Shown here: in pieces, positions 32,493 through 39,164 of the stretch
Position numbering within the stretch: position 1 is the stretch's first letter
How the letters are laid out: each line of letters opens with the position of its first letter
DNA from: an uncultured Clostridia bacterium
GTDB lineage: Bacteria; Bacillota; Clostridia; Oscillospirales; Ruminococcaceae
NCBI GenBank assembly: GCA_947625155.1
Contig: CANQNG010000020.1
Coordinates: 1-39,164, forward strand
Length of the DNA: 39,164 nucleotides
Direction of reading: 5' to 3'
Notes under the pieces: model-generated
What the model was told of the DNA's origin: nothing
Seen by the model: only the letters and a program-made list of their open reading frames with translations
The model's database searches: none
Program-made: the position numbers and the translations under genes

Positions 32493-32842
32493 GTGAGCAG
32501 ACTATGCGGCAGCGGGAACGTTTTCAGGTCCACGAGGAAAGTCCGGGCATCACAGAGCAGGATAGCTGCTAACGGCAGCCGAGGGCGACCTTAGGGCAAG
32601 TGCAACAGAAAATAGACTTCCGCCCCTCTGCGGCGGTAAAGGTGGAATGGTGAGGCAAGAGCTCACCGGAGTGCAGGAGACTGCACTGCCGTGTAAACCC
32701 TATCCGATGCAACGCCTATTGGTGCTGACCGTCTTAACGCTGGCTCGGCGGACGGTACAGCAAGGGCGGCTCAAGCGATACGGCGACGTACCGCTTAGAT
32801 AAATTGCCGCACACGACAGGACCCGGCTTATCGGTCTGGTCA
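32493..32842 (+). ncRNA. rnpB: RNase P RNA, bacterial class A
   Basis: The catalytic RNA that trims tRNA 5' leaders. Conserved blocks are GAGGAAAGTCCGGGC near the 5' end, CGACCTTAGGGCAAGTGCAA followed by CAGAAA, GGTAAAGGTGGAATGGTGAG, GTGTAAACCC, and the 3' block GACAGGACCCGGCTTA. CAGAC near 32500 pairs with GTCTG near 32835 to close P1. The A-type layout is inferred from these blocks and the length. Ends are approximate by a few bases. It has its own promoter and terminator. Confidence 0.96.
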
Positions 32843-32843
32843 C

Positions 32844-32873
32844 GGCTGGCAGCGGAAGCTGTCAGCCTTTTTT
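32844..32873 (+). terminator. rnpB terminator
   Basis: GGCTGGCAGC-GGAA-GCTGTCAGCC (32844-32867), with one G-T mismatch position in the stem, followed by six T. The ribosome-binding site of the next gene begins only about three bases after the T-tract. Confidence 0.9.
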
Positions 32874-32887
32874 CACAGGAGGCATAT

Positions 32888-33427
32888 ATGAAAGCATTAC
32901 GGCTGTGCTGCCTTGCGGCAGCGGCAGTTTTCTGCCTGACAGGGTGCAGCGGCACACAGACACCTTCCGAAAATACACAGGAGACCCTTGTTGTGCATCA
33001 GGCGCTTCCCCTGCCGGATCTGTCTGTCAAGATCCCTGACACATTTGAAACGACATCCTCGGAGCACTATGAGGAATATTATATCTGTGACGATGCTAGT
33101 ATCATCATCACGGAGGACACATCTGGAGCGCCCTACAATTCTGCCTATGACTATGCGGTCTCGGCTTTGGTACAGTACGAGGATATGGCACATTCTGTCA
33201 CGGATGTCAAGGAGGATGTGGTCTATTCGGGCAAGTATGCGGTACAGACGCTGGAATTTACCTATACCCTCGACCAGAATGACGAATATCCGCTGCATTC
33301 GATCATCGGCTACATGACAGACAGCGCTTCCATGTACATCATCACCTGCAAGTCCTCGGCGGATACCTTTGAGAGCCACCGGGAAGAATTTCTTTCCGTG
33401 CTCCAGTCCGCCTACATCGTCAAATAA
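32888..33427 (+). CDS. Putative lipoprotein
   Basis: A 179-aa protein with a lipoprotein signal peptide. The lipobox LTGC gives lipid-modified C20, followed by a Ser/Thr/Glu-rich spacer and a domain of about 140 residues I do not recognise (rich in Tyr, Asp and Ser). ATG 32888 follows AGGAGG closely; the longer frame from 32804 would cross rnpB. The stop overlaps the next gene as TAATG. With the rnpB terminator directly upstream, expression must depend on read-through or a cryptic promoter. Confidence 0.85.
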   Translation: MKALRLCCLAAAAVFCLTGCSGTQTPSENTQETLVVHQALPLPDLSVKIPDTFETTSSEHYEEYYICDDASIIITEDTSGAPYNSAYDYAVSALVQYEDMAHSVTDVKEDVVYSGKYAVQTLEFTYTLDQNDEYPLHSIIGYMTDSASMYIITCKSSADTFESHREEFLSVLQSAYIVK

Positions 33428-34164
33428 TGGACAGGCAGACAAAGACACGCTGTGCGCTGCTGGACTGTCTGCGGGGCGTGACGGTCATCAGCATGGTGCT
33501 CTATCATGCGGCATGGGACTTGGTCTACCTGTTCGGGATGCGCTGGAGCTGGTATTTCGGGACGGGGGCGGAGATCTGGCAGAAAAGCATCTGCTGCACG
33601 TTCATTCTGCTGTCCGGTTTCTGTGCCGGTTTCGGGAAACACACATGGCAGCGTGGGCTCCTTGTGTTCGGGCTGGGAGCTGGTATCACGCTTGTGACGG
33701 CAGTCTGTATGCCCGATTCTCTGGTGCTGTTCGGGGTGCTGACGCTGCTCGGTTCGTGTATGCTGCTGGTCGGGCTGACGAAACGTTGGCTGGAAAAAGT
33801 CCCGGCACTTCTCGGCATTCCCGGAAGCCTTGCGCTGTTTTTTGTGACGTATTCCCTACCGGGCGGGACACTGTGCGGCATTCCCCTGCCGGACAGCCTC
33901 TACCGCAATTTGGTGACAGCGTATTTCGGTTTTCCGGCAGCAGGATTTTACTCGACGGACTATTTTCCGCTGCTGCCGTGGCTGTTCCTGTTCCTGTGCG
34001 GTTTTTATGTTTATCATCTCTGCGGGGAGCGCATCCTGCGAAACACATGGAAAGGTGTTGCCCCCCTGAACTTTGTCGGCAGGCAGGCACTGCTGATCTA
34101 TGTGCTGCACCAGCCTGTGATCTACGGGGTGCTGACGGGGCTGCGGCTGCTGCAAATTATCTGA
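33427..34164 (+). CDS. DUF1624 / HGSNAT-like membrane protein
   Basis: A 245-aa polytopic membrane protein with about seven helices. The N-terminal LLDCLRGVTVISMVLYHAAWDL (residues 10-31) and the C-terminal FVGRQALLIYVLHQPVIYG are typical of DUF1624, related to the heparan-alpha-glucosaminide acetyltransferase membrane domain. A transacylation role is only inferred from the family. It lacks its own ribosome-binding site and is coupled to the lipoprotein gene by a 1-base overlap. Confidence 0.85.
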   Translation: MDRQTKTRCALLDCLRGVTVISMVLYHAAWDLVYLFGMRWSWYFGTGAEIWQKSICCTFILLSGFCAGFGKHTWQRGLLVFGLGAGITLVTAVCMPDSLVLFGVLTLLGSCMLLVGLTKRWLEKVPALLGIPGSLALFFVTYSLPGGTLCGIPLPDSLYRNLVTAYFGFPAAGFYSTDYFPLLPWLFLFLCGFYVYHLCGERILRNTWKGVAPLNFVGRQALLIYVLHQPVIYGVLTGLRLLQII

Positions 34165-34179
34165 AAGGAAGTGACCGGC

Positions 34180-34842
34180 TTGCACGGTAAGATCATCATC
34201 ATCGAGGGGCTGGACGGCTGCGGCAAGAGTACACAACTGGAACTGCTGCGAACACAGTTTCCGGCGTGCCGTTTCCTGACATTCCCAAATTACGATTCCC
34301 ATGCCGGGGAGATCATCAGCGAATATCTTGCTGGGCGCATACCGGACACCGACCCGGTGCATAGTGCCTATTCCGCAAGCACTTTCTATGCGGCGGACAG
34401 GTATATCAGTTTCCGGAAAGACTGGTTTGTGGACTATGCGGCAGGACGGAACATTCTTTCTGCCCGCTACACCACCTCGAATGCGGTCTATCAGATGACA
34501 AAGCTCCCCCGTACAGAATGGGAGAGCTATTGCAAATGGCTGTATGATCTGGAATACGGGAAACTCGGCATTCCAAAGCCGGATGCGGTGCTGTTCTTGG
34601 ACGTGCCGGTGGAAGTCTCCCAGAAGCTCCTGAACGCCCGCTACGGCGGCGATGCACGAAAAAAAGACATCCACGAGGCAGACCCGGCTTACCTGAAATG
34701 CTGCCGGGAAGCTGCCCTCTTTGCCGCTGAGACAGATCCTGTTCCGTGGACGTTCCTGCCCTGCTGTGAAAACGGCAGCCTGCTGCCCGTGGATGTCATT
34801 CAGGCAATGCTGACAGAAAAGATCAGTCAGCTCCTTGGATGA
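34180..34842 (+). CDS. Thymidylate kinase-like P-loop nucleoside monophosphate kinase (TTG start)
   Basis: A 220-aa protein. The P-loop GLDGCGKST is at residues 10-18; ADRYISF and FLDVPVEVSQKLL match the dTMP kinase DRx and LDxP patterns. dTMP phosphorylation is the likely reaction. It may be an additional paralog, as the usual tmk neighbours (holB-type genes) are absent. TTG 34180 is favoured because AAGGAAG is well spaced; GTG 34171 is too close to it. Its 3' end overlaps convergent hflX by 20 bp. Confidence 0.82.
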   Translation: MHGKIIIIEGLDGCGKSTQLELLRTQFPACRFLTFPNYDSHAGEIISEYLAGRIPDTDPVHSAYSASTFYAADRYISFRKDWFVDYAAGRNILSARYTTSNAVYQMTKLPRTEWESYCKWLYDLEYGKLGIPKPDAVLFLDVPVEVSQKLLNARYGGDARKKDIHEADPAYLKCCREAALFAAETDPVPWTFLPCCENGSLLPVDVIQAMLTEKISQLLG

Positions 34843-36067
34843 GAAACTGCTCCGCATATTTCTGGCGGCGTACATCTACCATGATGTCCACAAGCACGCC
34901 CCCGGCAGTGAACTCCTCGGAGAAGCACTTGCCCTCGTCCCGCAATGTCTGCAAGAAGCTGCCCTCACGGTAGGGGATGCAGAGCTGCATCCGCTTTGCG
35001 GTCTGCGGCAGCAGGCGGCTGATCGCCTGTAACAAGGCATCCAGCCCATCTCCGGTGCGGGCAGAGATCCAGACGGTGTCGGCGGTATCCTGTTTCGGGA
35101 GCATCACCAGATCTGCCTTGTTGAGTACCCGGAGCTGCGGTATTTCTGCGCAGCCGAGGTCGGCAAGGAGGCTCTGCGTGATCTCCATGCGCTCCCGCAC
35201 ATCCGGCTCGGAGGCATCCAGCACGTGCAAGATCAGGTCTGCCTGTGCAGTCTCCTCAAGCGTGGAGCGAAAGGCTTCCACAAGATGATGCGGCAGGCGG
35301 CGGATCAGTCCGACGGTATCGGACAGCAGCACACTGCGCCCGTCCGGCAATGCCAGCGCCCTTGCGGTGACATCGAGGGTGGCAAACAGCTTATCCTCAG
35401 CAAGTACACCGGCTCGGGTGAGCGCATTGAATAAGGTCGATTTTCCGGCATTCGTATAGCCGACAATGGCGGCTGTCAGGATGCCGTCTTTTTTGCGCCT
35501 GCCGGTGAGAAATTTCCGGTGCTTTTCTATGCCCCGGAGCTCCTCCCGGAGGGCTGCGATACGGCTGCGGATGTGGCGGCGATCGGTCTCCAGCTTGCTC
35601 TCGCCCGGTCCTCTTGTGCCGATGCCGCCGCCCAGCCGGGACAGGGCACTGCCCATCCCCGTCAGGCGGCTCAGGCGGTAGCGGTACTGGGCAAGTTCCA
35701 CCTGTACCTTGCCCTCTGCCGTCCTTGCCCGCTGTGCAAAAATGTCCATGATCAGCATCGTCCGGTCAATGACTTTGCAGTCCGCCGCTTCTGCGATATT
35801 GCGCATCTGCATCCCGGTCAGCTCCGTGTCAAAGATCAGCAGCTCCGCATCCAGATCTCGCATTTGTTCCCGTATTTCGGCAAGCTTCCCTGTGCCGATA
35901 CAGGTAGCTGCTTCGGGGGCAGGGCGGCTTTGCAGAACGGTGAGGACTGTTTCACAGCCGGCAGTTTCTGCCAGTTCCCGCAGTTCCTCCATAGAACGTT
36001 CTGCATCATATTCTCCCGTGTCAAGCCCGGCTAAAACAGCTCTGGTCAGGTTTTTCGGTTCGTTCAT
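34823..36067 (-). CDS. hflX: Ribosome-associated GTPase HflX
   Basis: A 414-aa GTPase that splits stalled 70S ribosomes, especially after stress. The N-terminal HflX domain contains GTGKLAEI, DTELTGMQMRNIAE and GMGSALSRLGGGIGTRGPGE. The G domain has G1 GYTNAGKST, G3 DTVGLIRRLPHHLVEAFRST and G4 NKAD. ATG 36067 is preceded by AGAGGAA. It is the last gene of the rtcB operon, and its start lies inside the upstream small gene. Confidence 0.95.
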   Translation of the reverse strand: MNEPKNLTRAVLAGLDTGEYDAERSMEELRELAETAGCETVLTVLQSRPAPEAATCIGTGKLAEIREQMRDLDAELLIFDTELTGMQMRNIAEAADCKVIDRTMLIMDIFAQRARTAEGKVQVELAQYRYRLSRLTGMGSALSRLGGGIGTRGPGESKLETDRRHIRSRIAALREELRGIEKHRKFLTGRRKKDGILTAAIVGYTNAGKSTLFNALTRAGVLAEDKLFATLDVTARALALPDGRSVLLSDTVGLIRRLPHHLVEAFRSTLEETAQADLILHVLDASEPDVRERMEITQSLLADLGCAEIPQLRVLNKADLVMLPKQDTADTVWISARTGDGLDALLQAISRLLPQTAKRMQLCIPYREGSFLQTLRDEGKCFSEEFTAGGVLVDIMVDVRRQKYAEQFLIQGAD

Positions 36068-36248
36068 GTCGTTCCTCTCGATCGGCAGCGCTCCATGCTG
36101 CCCTGTGCTTGGGGTGACGTTTGTAGGCTTTCTTGTTTTCTGCCTGCCGGGTAGCGGGGTCAATACTGCCCCATGTGCTGCGCTTCTGCAAGTCAAGTAC
36201 ACGGCGGGCTTTTTTGCTCATTTTTTCATAGGGGACGAATTTTTCCAT
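36021..36248 (-). CDS. Small conserved Clostridia-type protein of unknown function
   Basis: A 75-aa very basic protein beginning MEKFVPYEKMSKKARRVLD, with TWGSIDPATRQAENKKAYKR. From memory, short proteins of this form (KFVPYEKxSKK, TWGxxNPVTR, KAYxR) are common in Clostridia and end soon after the AYxR segment. Here the frame continues about 30 residues and overlaps the hflX start by 47 bp. ATG 36248 has GAGGTG just upstream and lies 10 bp after rnz. Confidence 0.7.
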   Translation of the reverse strand: MEKFVPYEKMSKKARRVLDLQKRSTWGSIDPATRQAENKKAYKRHPKHRAAWSAADREERHERTEKPDQSCFSRA

Positions 36249-36258
36249 ACGGGACACC

Positions 36259-37176
36259 TCATTTCAGTTCGGTGTGTTCTCCGTCACGTGAGATCGTCAC
36301 GTCCCGAAAAATGTCGGTCAATACGTCCCGGTACTGCTCCGGGCAATGCTCTGCCGGGCTGTAATGCGTCAGCCAAAGGCGCTTTGCCTTGGCTTCGGCA
36401 GCCAGACGGCAGGCATCCTGCATCAGCATATGGCGCTTGCCATTCATGCTCTGCTTTTTGTCCGGGTCGCCGTACATACCCTCACAGACAAAGAGATCTG
36501 CCTCCGCTGCAAATCCCGCAATGTCTGCAAACGGCAGCGTATCTGTCGTGCAGACGATACGCACGGGCGGACGGTCTCTGCCCGTTACCTGTGTTGGCTG
36601 AATGACACGTCCGTCCGGCAGCGTGACAGTTTCGCCGCTGTGCAGGGGTTTCCAGAACTGTACCGGAATGTCCAGCGCCTTTGCCTGTTCCGGCTGAAAT
36701 TCAGGCTTCTTGCGGAATTCGAGCCGATAGCCCAGACACGGCATGGAGTGCTTCAAAGGCAGCGTGGCGATCTGCAGCATCGGGTCGATCTGCACTGCCG
36801 GGAACGTGATACTTTCCCGTTCGGGCAGCGGACGGAGCTCCACCGGATAGGGAAGATGTCCGCAGACCTGCATCAGCCCCCGCAGCACCCCTTCCGCCGA
36901 GGAAGGCGCACAGATCGTCAACGGCTCACGGCGTTCCGTATTCCCCAACGACAGCAACAATCCCGGCAGTCCGGTCACATGGTCGGCATGGCAGTGCGTG
37001 ATCAGCAGCAGCTCCAGACGGCTCAAGTGTGCCCCGTACTTCGCAAAGGCGACCTGTGTGCCCTCGCCGCAGTCGATGAGCACTGCCTTTCCGTTGTGCT
37101 CCACATACAGACTGGTCAGAAATCGGTTTTTCAGCGGCAGCATGCCGCCTGTGCCGAGCAAAGTGATCTCAGGCAT
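36259..37176 (-). CDS. rnz: Ribonuclease Z
   Basis: A 305-aa metallo-beta-lactamase-fold endonuclease that processes tRNA 3' ends. The metal motif HCHADH gives H61, H63, D65 and H66; H144 (PLKHSMPCLGYR), the Asp in CTTDT and the His in LTHYSP complete the two-zinc site. The flexible arm region is of normal size. AAAGGAGG precedes the ATG. It lies 18 bp downstream of rtcB. Confidence 0.95.
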   Translation of the reverse strand: MPEITLLGTGGMLPLKNRFLTSLYVEHNGKAVLIDCGEGTQVAFAKYGAHLSRLELLLITHCHADHVTGLPGLLLSLGNTERREPLTICAPSSAEGVLRGLMQVCGHLPYPVELRPLPERESITFPAVQIDPMLQIATLPLKHSMPCLGYRLEFRKKPEFQPEQAKALDIPVQFWKPLHSGETVTLPDGRVIQPTQVTGRDRPPVRIVCTTDTLPFADIAGFAAEADLFVCEGMYGDPDKKQSMNGKRHMLMQDACRLAAEAKAKRLWLTHYSPAEHCPEQYRDVLTDIFRDVTISRDGEHTELK

Positions 37177-37194
37177 GTGCTTTCCTCCTTTGGA

Positions 37195-38421
37195 TCATTT
37201 CTTTCTCCACGGGGCTTCTTCCGAACCCGCCTTGAAGTTGTAGATCGGCTTGATCACGTCCAGAACTTCCGCTGTGGGCTGGATGTTTCCGGTAATATCT
37301 TCCATGCGCTTGTATGCCATGGGGCATTCATCAATGGTATCCATTCCGACCGAAGTCGTATAGATGCCCTGCATCTGCTTGCGGTATTCCGCAATGCTGC
37401 ACGAGGATCTTGCCTCCGAACGGGACATCAGCCGTCCTGCCCCATGGGGTGCGGAGAAATTCCAGTCCGGATCTCCCTTGCCCCGGCAAAGCAGACTGCC
37501 GTCCCGCATATTGACGGGTATCAGCAGGATCTCGTCTTTCTGTGCGGAAACAGCGCCTTTACGGAGAATGCGCTGCTCCATGTCGATATAATTGTGAATG
37601 GTCGTGAACTGTCGGCGCACTTTCCAGTGCATCCCCCGCACAATGACATCCGTCATCGCCTGTCGGTTCTGGACGGCGAATCGCTGTACGATCGCCATGT
37701 CGTGCAGGTAGTGTGCAAACAGCTCTCCCTCGCAGTAGGCAAGGTGCTGGGGAATGTTGGTGCGCTTGACAGCTTTCAGCTTTTTCAGTTCGTCTTGGAT
37801 GTGCTTCTGCTTTCCCTGTGCTTTCAGCTCGGCGATCAGCTTCTGTTGGGCAGCGGCATCCGAGCCGTTCAGGCGGGCATAGGCTTCCCGCTGATACCAT
37901 TCAGCGACCTCACGCCCCAGATGCCTTGAGCCGGAGTGGATCACCAGATACAGTGTCCCGTCGCTTCCCTTGTCCACTTCGATGAAGTGGTTGCCGCCGC
38001 CCAATGTGCCGATACTCAGCTCCGCACGCAGGGCGTGGATGTGCGGAAAGCAATACAGCTCCGTGAGGTCGATGCGCTCGGCATAGCGGTGTGCGGTCTT
38101 GCGCACGTTAAAGCCGGACGGGATCTCCGCACGGATGAGCTTGTCAAGTTTCTGCGGTTCGATGAAGGTATCTTTCAAAATGGTGGTCTCCATGCCGCAG
38201 CCGATGTCCACGCCCACAAGGTTGGGGACGAGTTTGTCGGTGATGGTCATGGTCGTGCCGATCGTACAGCCTGCACCGGCGTGTACATCCGGCATGATGC
38301 GGATCTGTGAGCCCTTGGCAAAGGGCTGGCTGCACAGTTCGGTGATCTGTGCAATAGATTTTTTGTCTGCAGCGTCTGTAAAGACCTTGGCAGTGGCGAA
38401 AGCGCCTTGGATCTCAAACAT
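37195..38421 (-). CDS. rtcB: RtcB RNA ligase
   Basis: A 408-aa GTP- and Mn-dependent ligase joining 2',3'-cyclic phosphate or 3'-phosphate to 5'-OH ends, used in RNA repair. Likely metal ligands are D72 and C75 (VGVDIGCGME), H145 (GGGNHFIEV), H162 (IHSGSRHLG) and H276; H326 in APHGAGRLMSR is the guanylated nucleophile. It looks complete and active. AGGAGG precedes the ATG. No rtcA or rtcR is nearby. It is the first gene of rtcB-rnz-orf75-hflX and sits behind a terminator-bearing leader. Confidence 0.96.
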   Translation of the reverse strand: MFEIQGAFATAKVFTDAADKKSIAQITELCSQPFAKGSQIRIMPDVHAGAGCTIGTTMTITDKLVPNLVGVDIGCGMETTILKDTFIEPQKLDKLIRAEIPSGFNVRKTAHRYAERIDLTELYCFPHIHALRAELSIGTLGGGNHFIEVDKGSDGTLYLVIHSGSRHLGREVAEWYQREAYARLNGSDAAAQQKLIAELKAQGKQKHIQDELKKLKAVKRTNIPQHLAYCEGELFAHYLHDMAIVQRFAVQNRQAMTDVIVRGMHWKVRRQFTTIHNYIDMEQRILRKGAVSAQKDEILLIPVNMRDGSLLCRGKGDPDWNFSAPHGAGRLMSRSEARSSCSIAEYRKQMQGIYTTSVGMDTIDECPMAYKRMEDITGNIQPTAEVLDVIKPIYNFKAGSEEAPWRKK

Positions 38422-38451
38422 AGTGCCTCCTGACTGCCGTGTTCCGGGAGC

Positions 38452-38483
38452 AAAAAAGGCGTTTCTGTATGCACAGAAACGCC
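38452..38483 (-). terminator. Terminator/attenuator in the rtcB leader
   Basis: Minus strand: GGCGTTTCTGT (38483-38473), loop GCAT, ACAGAAACGCC (38468-38458), then six T. A perfect 11-bp stem. It lies 30 bp before the rtcB start codon, with no promoter-like sequence in between. Confidence 0.93.
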
Positions 38484-38499
38484 ACTGTTACCATCAGGT

Positions 38500-38522
38500 C
38501 TGCACGGGGACTACCCCCGCAG
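38500..38522 (-). promoter_or_regulatory. Stem-loop enclosing the micro-ORF stop codon
   Basis: Minus strand: CTGC, then GGGG, loop containing TAG, then CCCC and GCAG (with small internal mismatches). The stop codon of the 28-codon micro-ORF sits in the loop, so translation would open this hairpin. Confidence 0.55.
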
Positions 38523-38597
38523 CTCTCCCGGAGAAAAAACGGCGATCCGTGTGATAGTTCGGTTGTCGGTCAGATAGAAATGTACGTGTTGGAACAT
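38511..38597 (-). CDS. 28-codon micro-ORF in the rtcB leader
   Basis: Encodes a 28-aa peptide, MFQHVHFYLTDNRTITRI then AVFSPGELRG. AGAAAGGAGGG is spaced seven to eight bases before the ATG, as good a ribosome-binding site as any in the window. It has its own promoter and is followed by the stem-loop at 38500-38522 and the terminator at 38458-38483. It could be a leader peptide controlling rtcB, or a small protein gene in its own right. I recognise no family. Confidence 0.55.
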   Translation of the reverse strand: MFQHVHFYLTDNRTITRIAVFSPGELRG

Positions 38598-38656
38598 GCC
38601 GTTCCCTCCTTTCTGAAAATACTGTTCTGCCGTATGTACTAGCAAAGAACAAGTTT

Positions 38657-38685
38657 ATTATAGCACACTTTGCAGCGATCGTCAA
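38657..38685 (-). promoter_or_regulatory. Promoter of the rtcB leader and operon
   Basis: Minus strand: TTGACG (38685-38680), a 17-bp spacer, TATAAT (38662-38657) preceded by TGC. Transcription should start near 38650, giving a leader of about 230 nt before rtcB. Confidence 0.88.
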
Positions 38686-38707
38686 GGGGTTTTTTGAGAA
38701 AATTTTC

Positions 38708-39164
38708 CTACCGTATCGCCATAAATGCTCCGGAGAATTTTTTGTGGTTCTCCGCAATGCCGGCATCGGGATCATACCGCTCCCCCGCAAGCGCTTGCAG
38801 GCGGGCAAGATAGTCTTCCCGTTCCAAGGAGCATGGGCGTTGGAGCGTGATCTGCCTGAGCAGCGGAACAGGGCTTTCTCCCATGCGGTGTACGTACATC
38901 AGCCCGGAAACGACACGATTTCTGCCGCTGTGCGCCATCCAGTACAGAGGGCGTTTATGGAAACGCCGGCAATGGTCGGCATAAAAGCCAGACTGATAAT
39001 ATTTCTCCAGATCGCCGAGTTGTGCGGTCAGCCATTGCAGATCTTCCGCAAGATGCGCTTTGCCATAGACCGTACACAGAAGCTCCCGCATCCGTTCGGA
39101 AAAGTGTTCCGGTGTGAGAAAATTTTCCGCAAGCACCGGAATGCCCTCCAGCCGATACCGCCCG
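38708..39164 (-). CDS. C-terminal part of a probable DNA adenine methyltransferase (PglX/type IIG-like), 5' end outside window
   Basis: The reading frame stays open to the window edge (GRYRLEGIPVLAENF at the edge), so the gene begins beyond 39164. The visible 151 residues include GFYADHCRRFHKRPLYWMAH and LMYVHRM, resembling the HxxxFxxRPxxWxxxxG and LxYxHR pattern near the C-terminus of BREX PglX and related type IIG methyltransferases, then a YDPDAGIAENHKKF end. No catalytic motif is in view, so the call rests on the tail alone. It stops 22 bp before the rtcB promoter. Confidence 0.5.
   Translation of the reverse strand, partial: GRYRLEGIPVLAENFLTPEHFSERMRELLCTVYGKAHLAEDLQWLTAQLGDLEKYYQSGFYADHCRRFHKRPLYWMAHSGRNRVVSGLMYVHRMGESPVPLLRQITLQRPCSLEREDYLARLQALAGERYDPDAGIAENHKKFSGAFMAIR

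Follow-up and report, generated by a model that had tools for sequence, protein, structure and literature searches.

A Candidate Ribosome-Controlled Transcription Attenuator Upstream of rtcB in Ruminococcus-Type Firmicutes

The RNA ligase gene rtcB of this uncultured Clostridia bacterium is preceded by a leader that is probably a ribosome-controlled transcription attenuator of the anti-antiterminator/antiterminator/terminator kind. We analyzed this leader in the window (the whole stretch of 39,164 nucleotides) and in relatives. An earlier note on this DNA had proposed transcription attenuation built around a short upstream open reading frame (uORF), and this proposal is well supported by comparative sequence. 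Comparison of the leaders demonstrates the P1, antiterminator (AT), terminator and P4 pairings, together with a conserved uORF.

The rtcB leader and its distribution

The layout set out in the earlier note (a near-consensus promoter, a 28-codon ORF with a strong Shine-Dalgarno (SD) sequence, a perfect 11-bp stem with six T, and a promoterless gap of 30 bp before the rtcB ATG) was borne out in each part, as were its assignments of rtcB, rnz and hflX, all of which match protein profiles (Table 1). The promoter is the best of five promoter-like matches in 33000-39164 (shuffled sequences average 2.6), and the terminator has the longest stem among 12 terminator-like matches (shuffles average 5.6). 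A putative uORF with its own SD sequence lies between the two, the arrangement of an attenuator. The gap from the T run to the rtcB ATG is 30 bases (38451-38422), in which the promoter scan listed no promoter and of which 38451-38436 is used by pairings. The leader (38650-38422) folds with -78.6 kcal/mol, compared with -64.3 (sd 4.6) for shuffled sequences, and 0/200 of the shuffles were as good. P1 contains a 2-U bulge in the window; P4, formed by element D and 38543-38525, encloses P2 and P3, and hairpins resembling P2 were seen by eye in the alignment in many relatives.

Table 1. Positions of the leader elements and operon genes in the window
Feature	Position	Strand	Remarks
Promoter TTGACG-17-TATAAT, TG before -10	38657..38685	-	11/12 consensus matches
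uORF Shine-Dalgarno region AGAAAGGAGG	38605..38614	-	From sequence; same place in relatives
P1 5' strand, region 1, GGAGGGAACGGC	38598..38609	-	SD to base before uORF start codon
uORF, 28 codons + TAG, MFQHVHFYLTDNRTITRIAVFSPGELRG	38511..38597	-	Proposed ribosome-sensing element; peptide not conserved
AT 5' strand CACGGATCGCC = CACGGA-U-CGCC	38541..38551	-	uORF codons 16-19; overlaps X
P1 3' strand, element X, region 2, GCCGTTTTTTCTCC	38530..38543	-	Inside uORF
P2 hairpin CTGCGGGGGTAGTCCCCGTGCAG	38500..38522	-	Spans uORF stop codon; from leader fold
Region 3, terminator 5' arm + one loop base	38472..38483	-	Partner of AT strand
Intrinsic terminator P3 + six T	P3 38483-38458, T 38457-38452	-	Exact 11-bp stem, 4-nt loop
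Element D, GCTCCCGG...ACGGC, beyond terminator	38436..38451	-	Pairs with 38543-38525 (GCCGT and CCGGGAG)
rtcB Shine-Dalgarno AGGAGG	38426..38431	-	From sequence
rtcB, RNA ligase	37195..38421	-	PF01139 E=2.8e-56; ATG at 38421
rnz, ribonuclease Z	36259..37176	-	NF000801 304.8 bits, cut-off 252
orf75, small basic protein, FVPYEKxSKK signature	36021..36248	-	Near rtcB in relatives
hflX, ribosome-splitting GTPase	34823..36067	-	TIGR03156 E=9e-136; start codon picked by eye

At gathering score, Rfam identified RNase P RNA and an S10 leader in the window, both away from the rtcB leader, and ARAGORN detected no tRNA in it. The RNase P RNA lies at 32494-32846, about 2 kb beyond hflX, and in three relatives (L013, L025 and L030) RNase P RNA is found at most 1.5 kb upstream of rtcB, so that genes for tRNA processing and repair are close together. 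Upstream of the leader, a gene cut by the window end (38708-39163) matches the C-terminal part of a PglX-type (BREX) methyltransferase, and its stop is 22 bp before the rtcB promoter; in the sibling L002, the sequence upstream of the leader differs from this PglX-like gene.

Conservation of the terminator and the ORF among relatives had been set beforehand as a check on the proposal, and it was found in 28/30 rtcB loci of the genus and in 42/100 further loci. The genus carries rtcB in 33/38 genomes, from which 30 loci were taken (the matches in G003, G023 and G027 gave no locus). In the 28 loci with uORF and terminator, these stand in the same order, and the promoter pattern TTGAC..TAT[AC]AT precedes them in 27 (not in L003). 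The leader of L020 is incomplete at a contig end, so that the uORF is present in 28/29 complete genus leaders. The exception, L014, has kept the promoter and the terminator without the uORF, and may be a natural variant in which the switch is locked.

The 100 further rtcB loci comprise 80 named records and 20 family loci, and they overlap the genus set, because the uORFs of L031-L039 are identical to those of genus loci. A mechanical scan flagged 46 of them, 42 directly upstream of rtcB. Two scan hits (L057 and L076) lie far upstream and have no promoter, and were not counted. In the remaining two (L069 and L087), the leader is located about 1 kb upstream of rtcB, before a protein-kinase-like gene that precedes rtcB (in L069, PF00069 E=3e-5, under the curated cut-off), and from its position the leader appears to move with the operon. 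The carriers include the Ruminococcus flavefaciens strains ATCC 19208 (L050), SAb67 (L048) and YRD2003 (L060); the scan flagged no locus among the 10 titled Lachnospiraceae. Two rtcB copies in one genome bin (G189; L045 and L049) each have a leader, and this bin is possibly mixed. L004 has an L10 leader (RF00557, 978-1111) on the other strand, directly upstream of its rtcB leader.

A known Rfam leader or riboswitch, T-box included, was considered and rejected, as no covariance model matched at gathering score. No family covered the leader at that score in the window and 11 loci, and in 15 genus loci the leader gave only sub-threshold hits, such as PyrR and Spot_42 over the leader of L016 and BSR0709 partly over that of L024. 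We also searched with a start-to-X pattern, which overlooks most of the known leaders, so that copies at other genes may exist. It gave 10 matches in 9/38 genus genomes (a reversed control pattern gave 4), of which three are at rtcB leaders by position (G000, G024 and G036) and seven are elsewhere. In R. flavefaciens-type genomes, all 8 matches (in 7/9 genomes) are at rtcB by position.

The gene orf75 (75 codons), which has no Pfam, NCBIfam or PADLOC match, is represented by 46 distinct sequences in rtcB loci with the signature KFVPYEKxSKK...KHR. Among L031-L130, tblastn matched it in 35/44 leader-bearing loci, compared with 2/56 others (L055 and L078). Archease is the usual partner of RtcB, and it had no match in the 38 genus genomes; its absence there suggests that the orf75 protein could be an RtcB accessory factor.

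Overlapping pairings in the leader

When the leaders were set side by side, the SD sequence and start codon of the uORF were found to be complementary to a segment in the 3' part of the uORF (P1). This segment, element X, can also base-pair with sequence past the terminator (P4), and a stretch that lies 5' of X and overlaps it is complementary to the terminator 5' arm (AT). We examined these pairings in 60 leaders by an alignment-free swap test, in which the own-species duplex energy is compared with species-swapped energies over 5000 permutations; the permutations ignore relatedness, and given shared ancestry their counts overstate independence. Outside this set are L014 (no uORF), L020 (contig end), L031-L039 (uORFs identical to those of the genus), L073, L069 and L087. 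All three pairings were stronger within species: P1 gave -19.18 against -15.12 for swapped partners (sd 0.39), AT gave -13.49 against -12.14 (sd 0.33), and P4 gave -20.39 against -15.74 (sd 0.44), each with a count of 0/5000. Three control pairings showed no excess (uORF with T3, 4787/5000; start region with T5, 2119/5000; start region with D, 2898/5000). Over the 60-leader set as a whole, the antiterminator and the terminator share one arm and are mutually exclusive. The earlier note had put forward a different antiterminator, CAGAAA in the ribosome-binding region, which is not supported: the uORF start against the terminator 5' arm gave -8.88 for own and -8.84 for permuted pairs. The 5-mer CAGAA itself occurs 24 times in uORF bodies against 6.9 expected, and in many species it is part of the AT strand.

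The individual groups gave a more uneven picture. Within the genus, where the terminator arms served as a positive control, P1 was supported, and P4 was supported in groups A and B, unsupported in group C (L007, L010, L011, L012 and L015; 3664/5000) and weak in L005 and L021. For AT, the count was 0/5000 with all 28 genus leaders, 5/5000 in groups A and B together, and 984/5000 in group C. In groups D, E and F, the counts out of 5000 were 6, 5 and 256 for P1, 1832, 1200 and 344 for AT, and 0, 314 and 3571 for P4; inside groups C, D and E alone, the AT test was thus not significant. In group F, which has five members, the control pairing of the uORF with T3 also stood out (74/5000).

The pairing partners of P1 change together. 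In a fixed 13-bp register, set by the motif and not by complementarity, 77% of cells are paired, compared with 34-47% when the register is slid; this count covers 56/60 leaders, as L070, L086, L104 and L128 are without the X motif. Part of the genus pairs GGUGAACGGC with GCCGUAUGCC, R. flavefaciens pairs GGUGAACACCAUG with CAUGGAGUUUGCC, and other lineages pair GGUGAGUUUCAUG with CAUGAAAUUUGCC. Pairs covary across lineages, position -2 being G-C in 24 leaders, C-G in 17 and U-A in 5, and in L100 a GUG start of the uORF is matched by CAC opposite. In an alignment of 17/20 group D leaders (A4), P1 is 93% paired, 4/13 pairs have changed on both sides, and the covariation score was reached in 0/500 shuffles. 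In an alignment of 18/28 genus leaders (A5), P1 is 83% paired compared with 30-60% when slid, with modest covariation (26/500 shuffles). In fixed genus columns AT showed no covariation (266/500 shuffles), though it was 73% paired compared with 35-50% when slid.

Ribosome position, the uORF and alternative explanations

We folded 56 leaders up to the terminator 5' arm with a ribosome at different places, using equilibrium energies and not co-transcriptional folding. The AT probability per base was 0.18 in the free leader and 0.54 when a ribosome occupied the uORF start, compared with 0.14 for one at codon 8, 0.01 at region 2 and 0.13 at the stop, so that of the five positions modelled the uORF start alone favours AT. 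Masking the start raised AT in 41/56 leaders, lowered it in 2 and left it about unchanged in 13; the gain was at most 0.05 in 15/56. With its own downstream part, the start-masked AT was 0.542, compared with 0.231 for swapped tails (sd 0.031, 12 shufflings). The P1 fraction was at least 0.5 before region 3 was made in 50/56 leaders. Region 2 and the uORF stop are a median of 20 nt apart (range 11-53; at least 18 in 38/56), so a ribosome at the stop would leave region 2 free in many species. As a ribosome at codon 8 gives no AT gain, sensing would be confined to a narrow window if ribosomes do not queue. In this model, the leader of the window is itself a weak example of the switch: AT is 0.82 already without a ribosome, and P1 drops from 0.66 before region 3 to 0.0 after it, its place at the start codon taken by a local hairpin. 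We also considered P4 as a block on the rtcB ribosome-binding site and rejected it, because in every modelled state the unpaired fraction of the rtcB SD is near one half (0.49, 0.43 and 0.47).

The switching logic predicted from these folds is as follows. Region 1 would be the uORF initiation site (SD and start codon), region 2 a segment of roughly codons 16-24 within the uORF, and regions 3 and 4 the terminator arms. The apparent anti-antiterminator, P1, includes the uORF start, and a ribosome placed there is predicted to disrupt it. With no ribosome at the start, either because translation of the uORF has not begun or because the ribosome has already left, regions 1 and 2 would pair, the terminator would form, and transcription would stop before rtcB. 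A ribosome dwelling at the start or the first few codons would cover region 1, regions 2 and 3 would pair, and transcription would continue into the operon. Anything that slows initiation or the first steps of elongation would then induce RNA repair, candidate causes being ribosome or tRNA damage and initiation-arresting antibiotics. The physiological signal, we infer, is a ribosome that lingers; ribosome stalling, which the earlier note had raised, fits the modelled structure. In the readthrough mRNA, region 2 could pair with bases directly preceding the rtcB ribosome-binding site (P4), and we infer that this would block the re-forming of P1 or tune rtcB translation.

The uORFs are 23-42 codons long, and no conserved peptide motif or arrest peptide such as RLR was seen among the leaders compared. 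In 18 overlapping close uORF pairs, we counted 25 synonymous and 179 non-synonymous codon changes, with 27/185 and 60/166 in the control frames of the same pairs; the most closely related pair (the window and the sibling L002) has 4 synonymous changes to 1 non-synonymous. The other frames of the uORF bodies contain 5-10% stops, a comparison in which the further loci had been picked for having a uORF. We read these patterns as suggesting that translation of the uORF is conserved, and not its peptide. For codon tests, L002, L015 and L027 were dropped as near-duplicates, after which 49/53 bodies were kept. In these 49 nonredundant bodies, Tyr (z 4.5), Gln (3.1) and Phe (2.8) exceeded shuffled open frames, and Leu, Arg and Ile fell below them; 25 genus bodies gave z 4.4 for Tyr and 4.9 for Gln. 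Outside the genus there was no frame preference (A-middle codons, 142 in frame 0 and 147 in frame 2; Tyr, 33 and 32). No run of control codons was seen at a fixed place in the uORFs; there is only a bias. An unstructured uORF body acting as nuclease bait through ACA sites was also rejected, as ACA occurs 121 times against 114 expected.

These results bear on several other explanations of the leader. The earlier note had suggested tRNA damage as a signal, and in a codon-specific form of this idea the codons of tRNAs cut by anticodon nucleases would stall the ribosome, so that tRNA damage triggers its own repair. The Tyr, Gln and Phe excess would suit such a sensor, and damaged tRNA induces the rtc operon of Salmonella. 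The bias (Tyr, Gln and His enrichment) is weak, however, and for A-middle and Tyr codons it shows no frame preference outside the genus; moreover, close uORFs do not keep their amino acids, and a ribosome at codon 8 does not favour AT in folding; we rejected this sensor as a candidate and consider it very unlikely. Dwelling of the ribosome at the uORF start is probably the signal, rather than a codon-specific tRNA signal. We regard as unlikely an antibiotic sensor of the Listeria hflXr/erm type, in which a drug would arrest translation of the uORF at a defined peptide motif, and the hflX-containing operon would serve in resistance. The window operon does contain hflX, and hflX genes elsewhere have uORF attenuators, but the peptide is not conserved and non-synonymous changes prevail in the uORFs. 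Moreover, over a stretch of up to 6 kb downstream of rtcB, and often less, hflX was found in 7/9 genus-like loci (L031-L039) and in only 2/71 of the loci L040-L110 (L046 and L099), of which L046 alone has the leader.

It is also quite unlikely that the leader binds a ligand or protein at P1 or at the P4-P2-P3 junction, for instance in autoregulation by RtcB or orf75, with the uORF incidental. This explanation draws on the support for P4 over the whole set, which makes a junction at the rtcB ribosome-binding site, and on the presence of orf75, a basic protein, near rtcB in many loci; against it stand the near-constant presence of the uORF in complete genus leaders, the stops in the other frames, and the lack of an Rfam match at gathering score in the loci scanned. 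An unregulated partial terminator, which would set a low constant level of expression while the uORF merely shields the terminator, is highly improbable. It would account for the window fold, which leans to AT without a ribosome, and for L014, which has a terminator and no uORF, but overlapping alternative pairings kept by compensatory change are hard to explain without switching.

Relation to known systems and significance

In leader-peptide attenuators of the trp/his type, regions pair as 1:2, 2:3 and 3:4. The rtcB leader would follow the same scheme, with the ribosome-binding site of the uORF as region 1 in place of control codons. The closest precedent by analogy appears to be the vmlR leader of Bacillus subtilis, in which initiation arrest on a short uORF keeps an anti-antiterminator from forming, so that an antiterminator overrides an intrinsic terminator; variants of the uORF sequence are tolerated, and there is extra structure at the SD of the gene (PMC9226507). 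Both leaders have a uORF in the anti-antiterminator, an intrinsic terminator, and a peptide whose sequence appears unimportant, and a start-codon logic is predicted for rtcB too. The vmlR uORF encodes a tripeptide, its SD is single-stranded ahead of SL-1, and the gene encodes an ABCF resistance factor (PMC9226507), whereas the rtcB leader has a uORF of 23-42 codons, an SD and start codon within a helix, and RNA repair genes downstream.

Other systems share parts of this design. The E. coli toiL/topAI uORF is a general sensor of translation stress in which stalling at the start codon changes RNA pairing; toiL hides the ribosome-binding site of the gene and acts through Rho-dependent termination inside it (PMC12121999), whereas the rtcB leader has an intrinsic terminator. 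Listeria hflXr (rli80) combines a uORF, alternative structures and a terminator with an hflX-type gene (PMC6310831), and in Bacillales the uORFC-6-1 motif precedes hflX (PMC8632094), a gene type that also occurs in the window operon. The uORFs of hflXr and uORFC-6-1 are marked by RLR (PMC6310831, PMC8632094); in those of rtcB no such motif is conserved, and the first gene is rtcB. The rsr-yrlBA-rtcBA operon of Salmonella is likewise an inducible RNA repair operon with rtcB, in which RtcR senses tRNA fragments with cyclic phosphate ends (PMC7790460). In contrast, RtcR had no match in any of the 38 genus genomes, of which 12 have a completeness of 90% or more (the E. coli control was positive); the site of control is apparently the leader RNA. 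No attenuator of rtcB occurs among the best-ranked matches listed from the freely accessible full-text literature, in agreement with the earlier note, which knew of none in Firmicutes; a motif catalogue may contain one as an unnamed entry.

More tentatively, the leader could be a regulator-free, drug-independent damage sensor that replaces RtcR in Ruminococcus-type Firmicutes, such that RNA repair (RtcB and, in the window, RNase Z, orf75 and HflX) would be switched on directly by whatever lesion delays ribosomes at the uORF start. P4 would be a second switch that takes region 2 in the finished mRNA, one element thus being used three times, as anti-antiterminator, as antiterminator, and as a post-termination helix at the rtcB start. 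We consider this extended version possible, though doubtful as a whole.

Bacterial RNA repair is induced by broken tRNA through RtcR in Salmonella, and for bacteria that lack RtcR the leader offers a testable answer. It would tie rtcB to the behaviour of the ribosome at a decoy start site, and would extend start-arrest attenuation from antibiotic resistance genes and a toxin-antitoxin transcript to RNA repair. If so, a stall in translation could induce RNA repair in these Ruminococcus-type gut bacteria with no need for a protein regulator.
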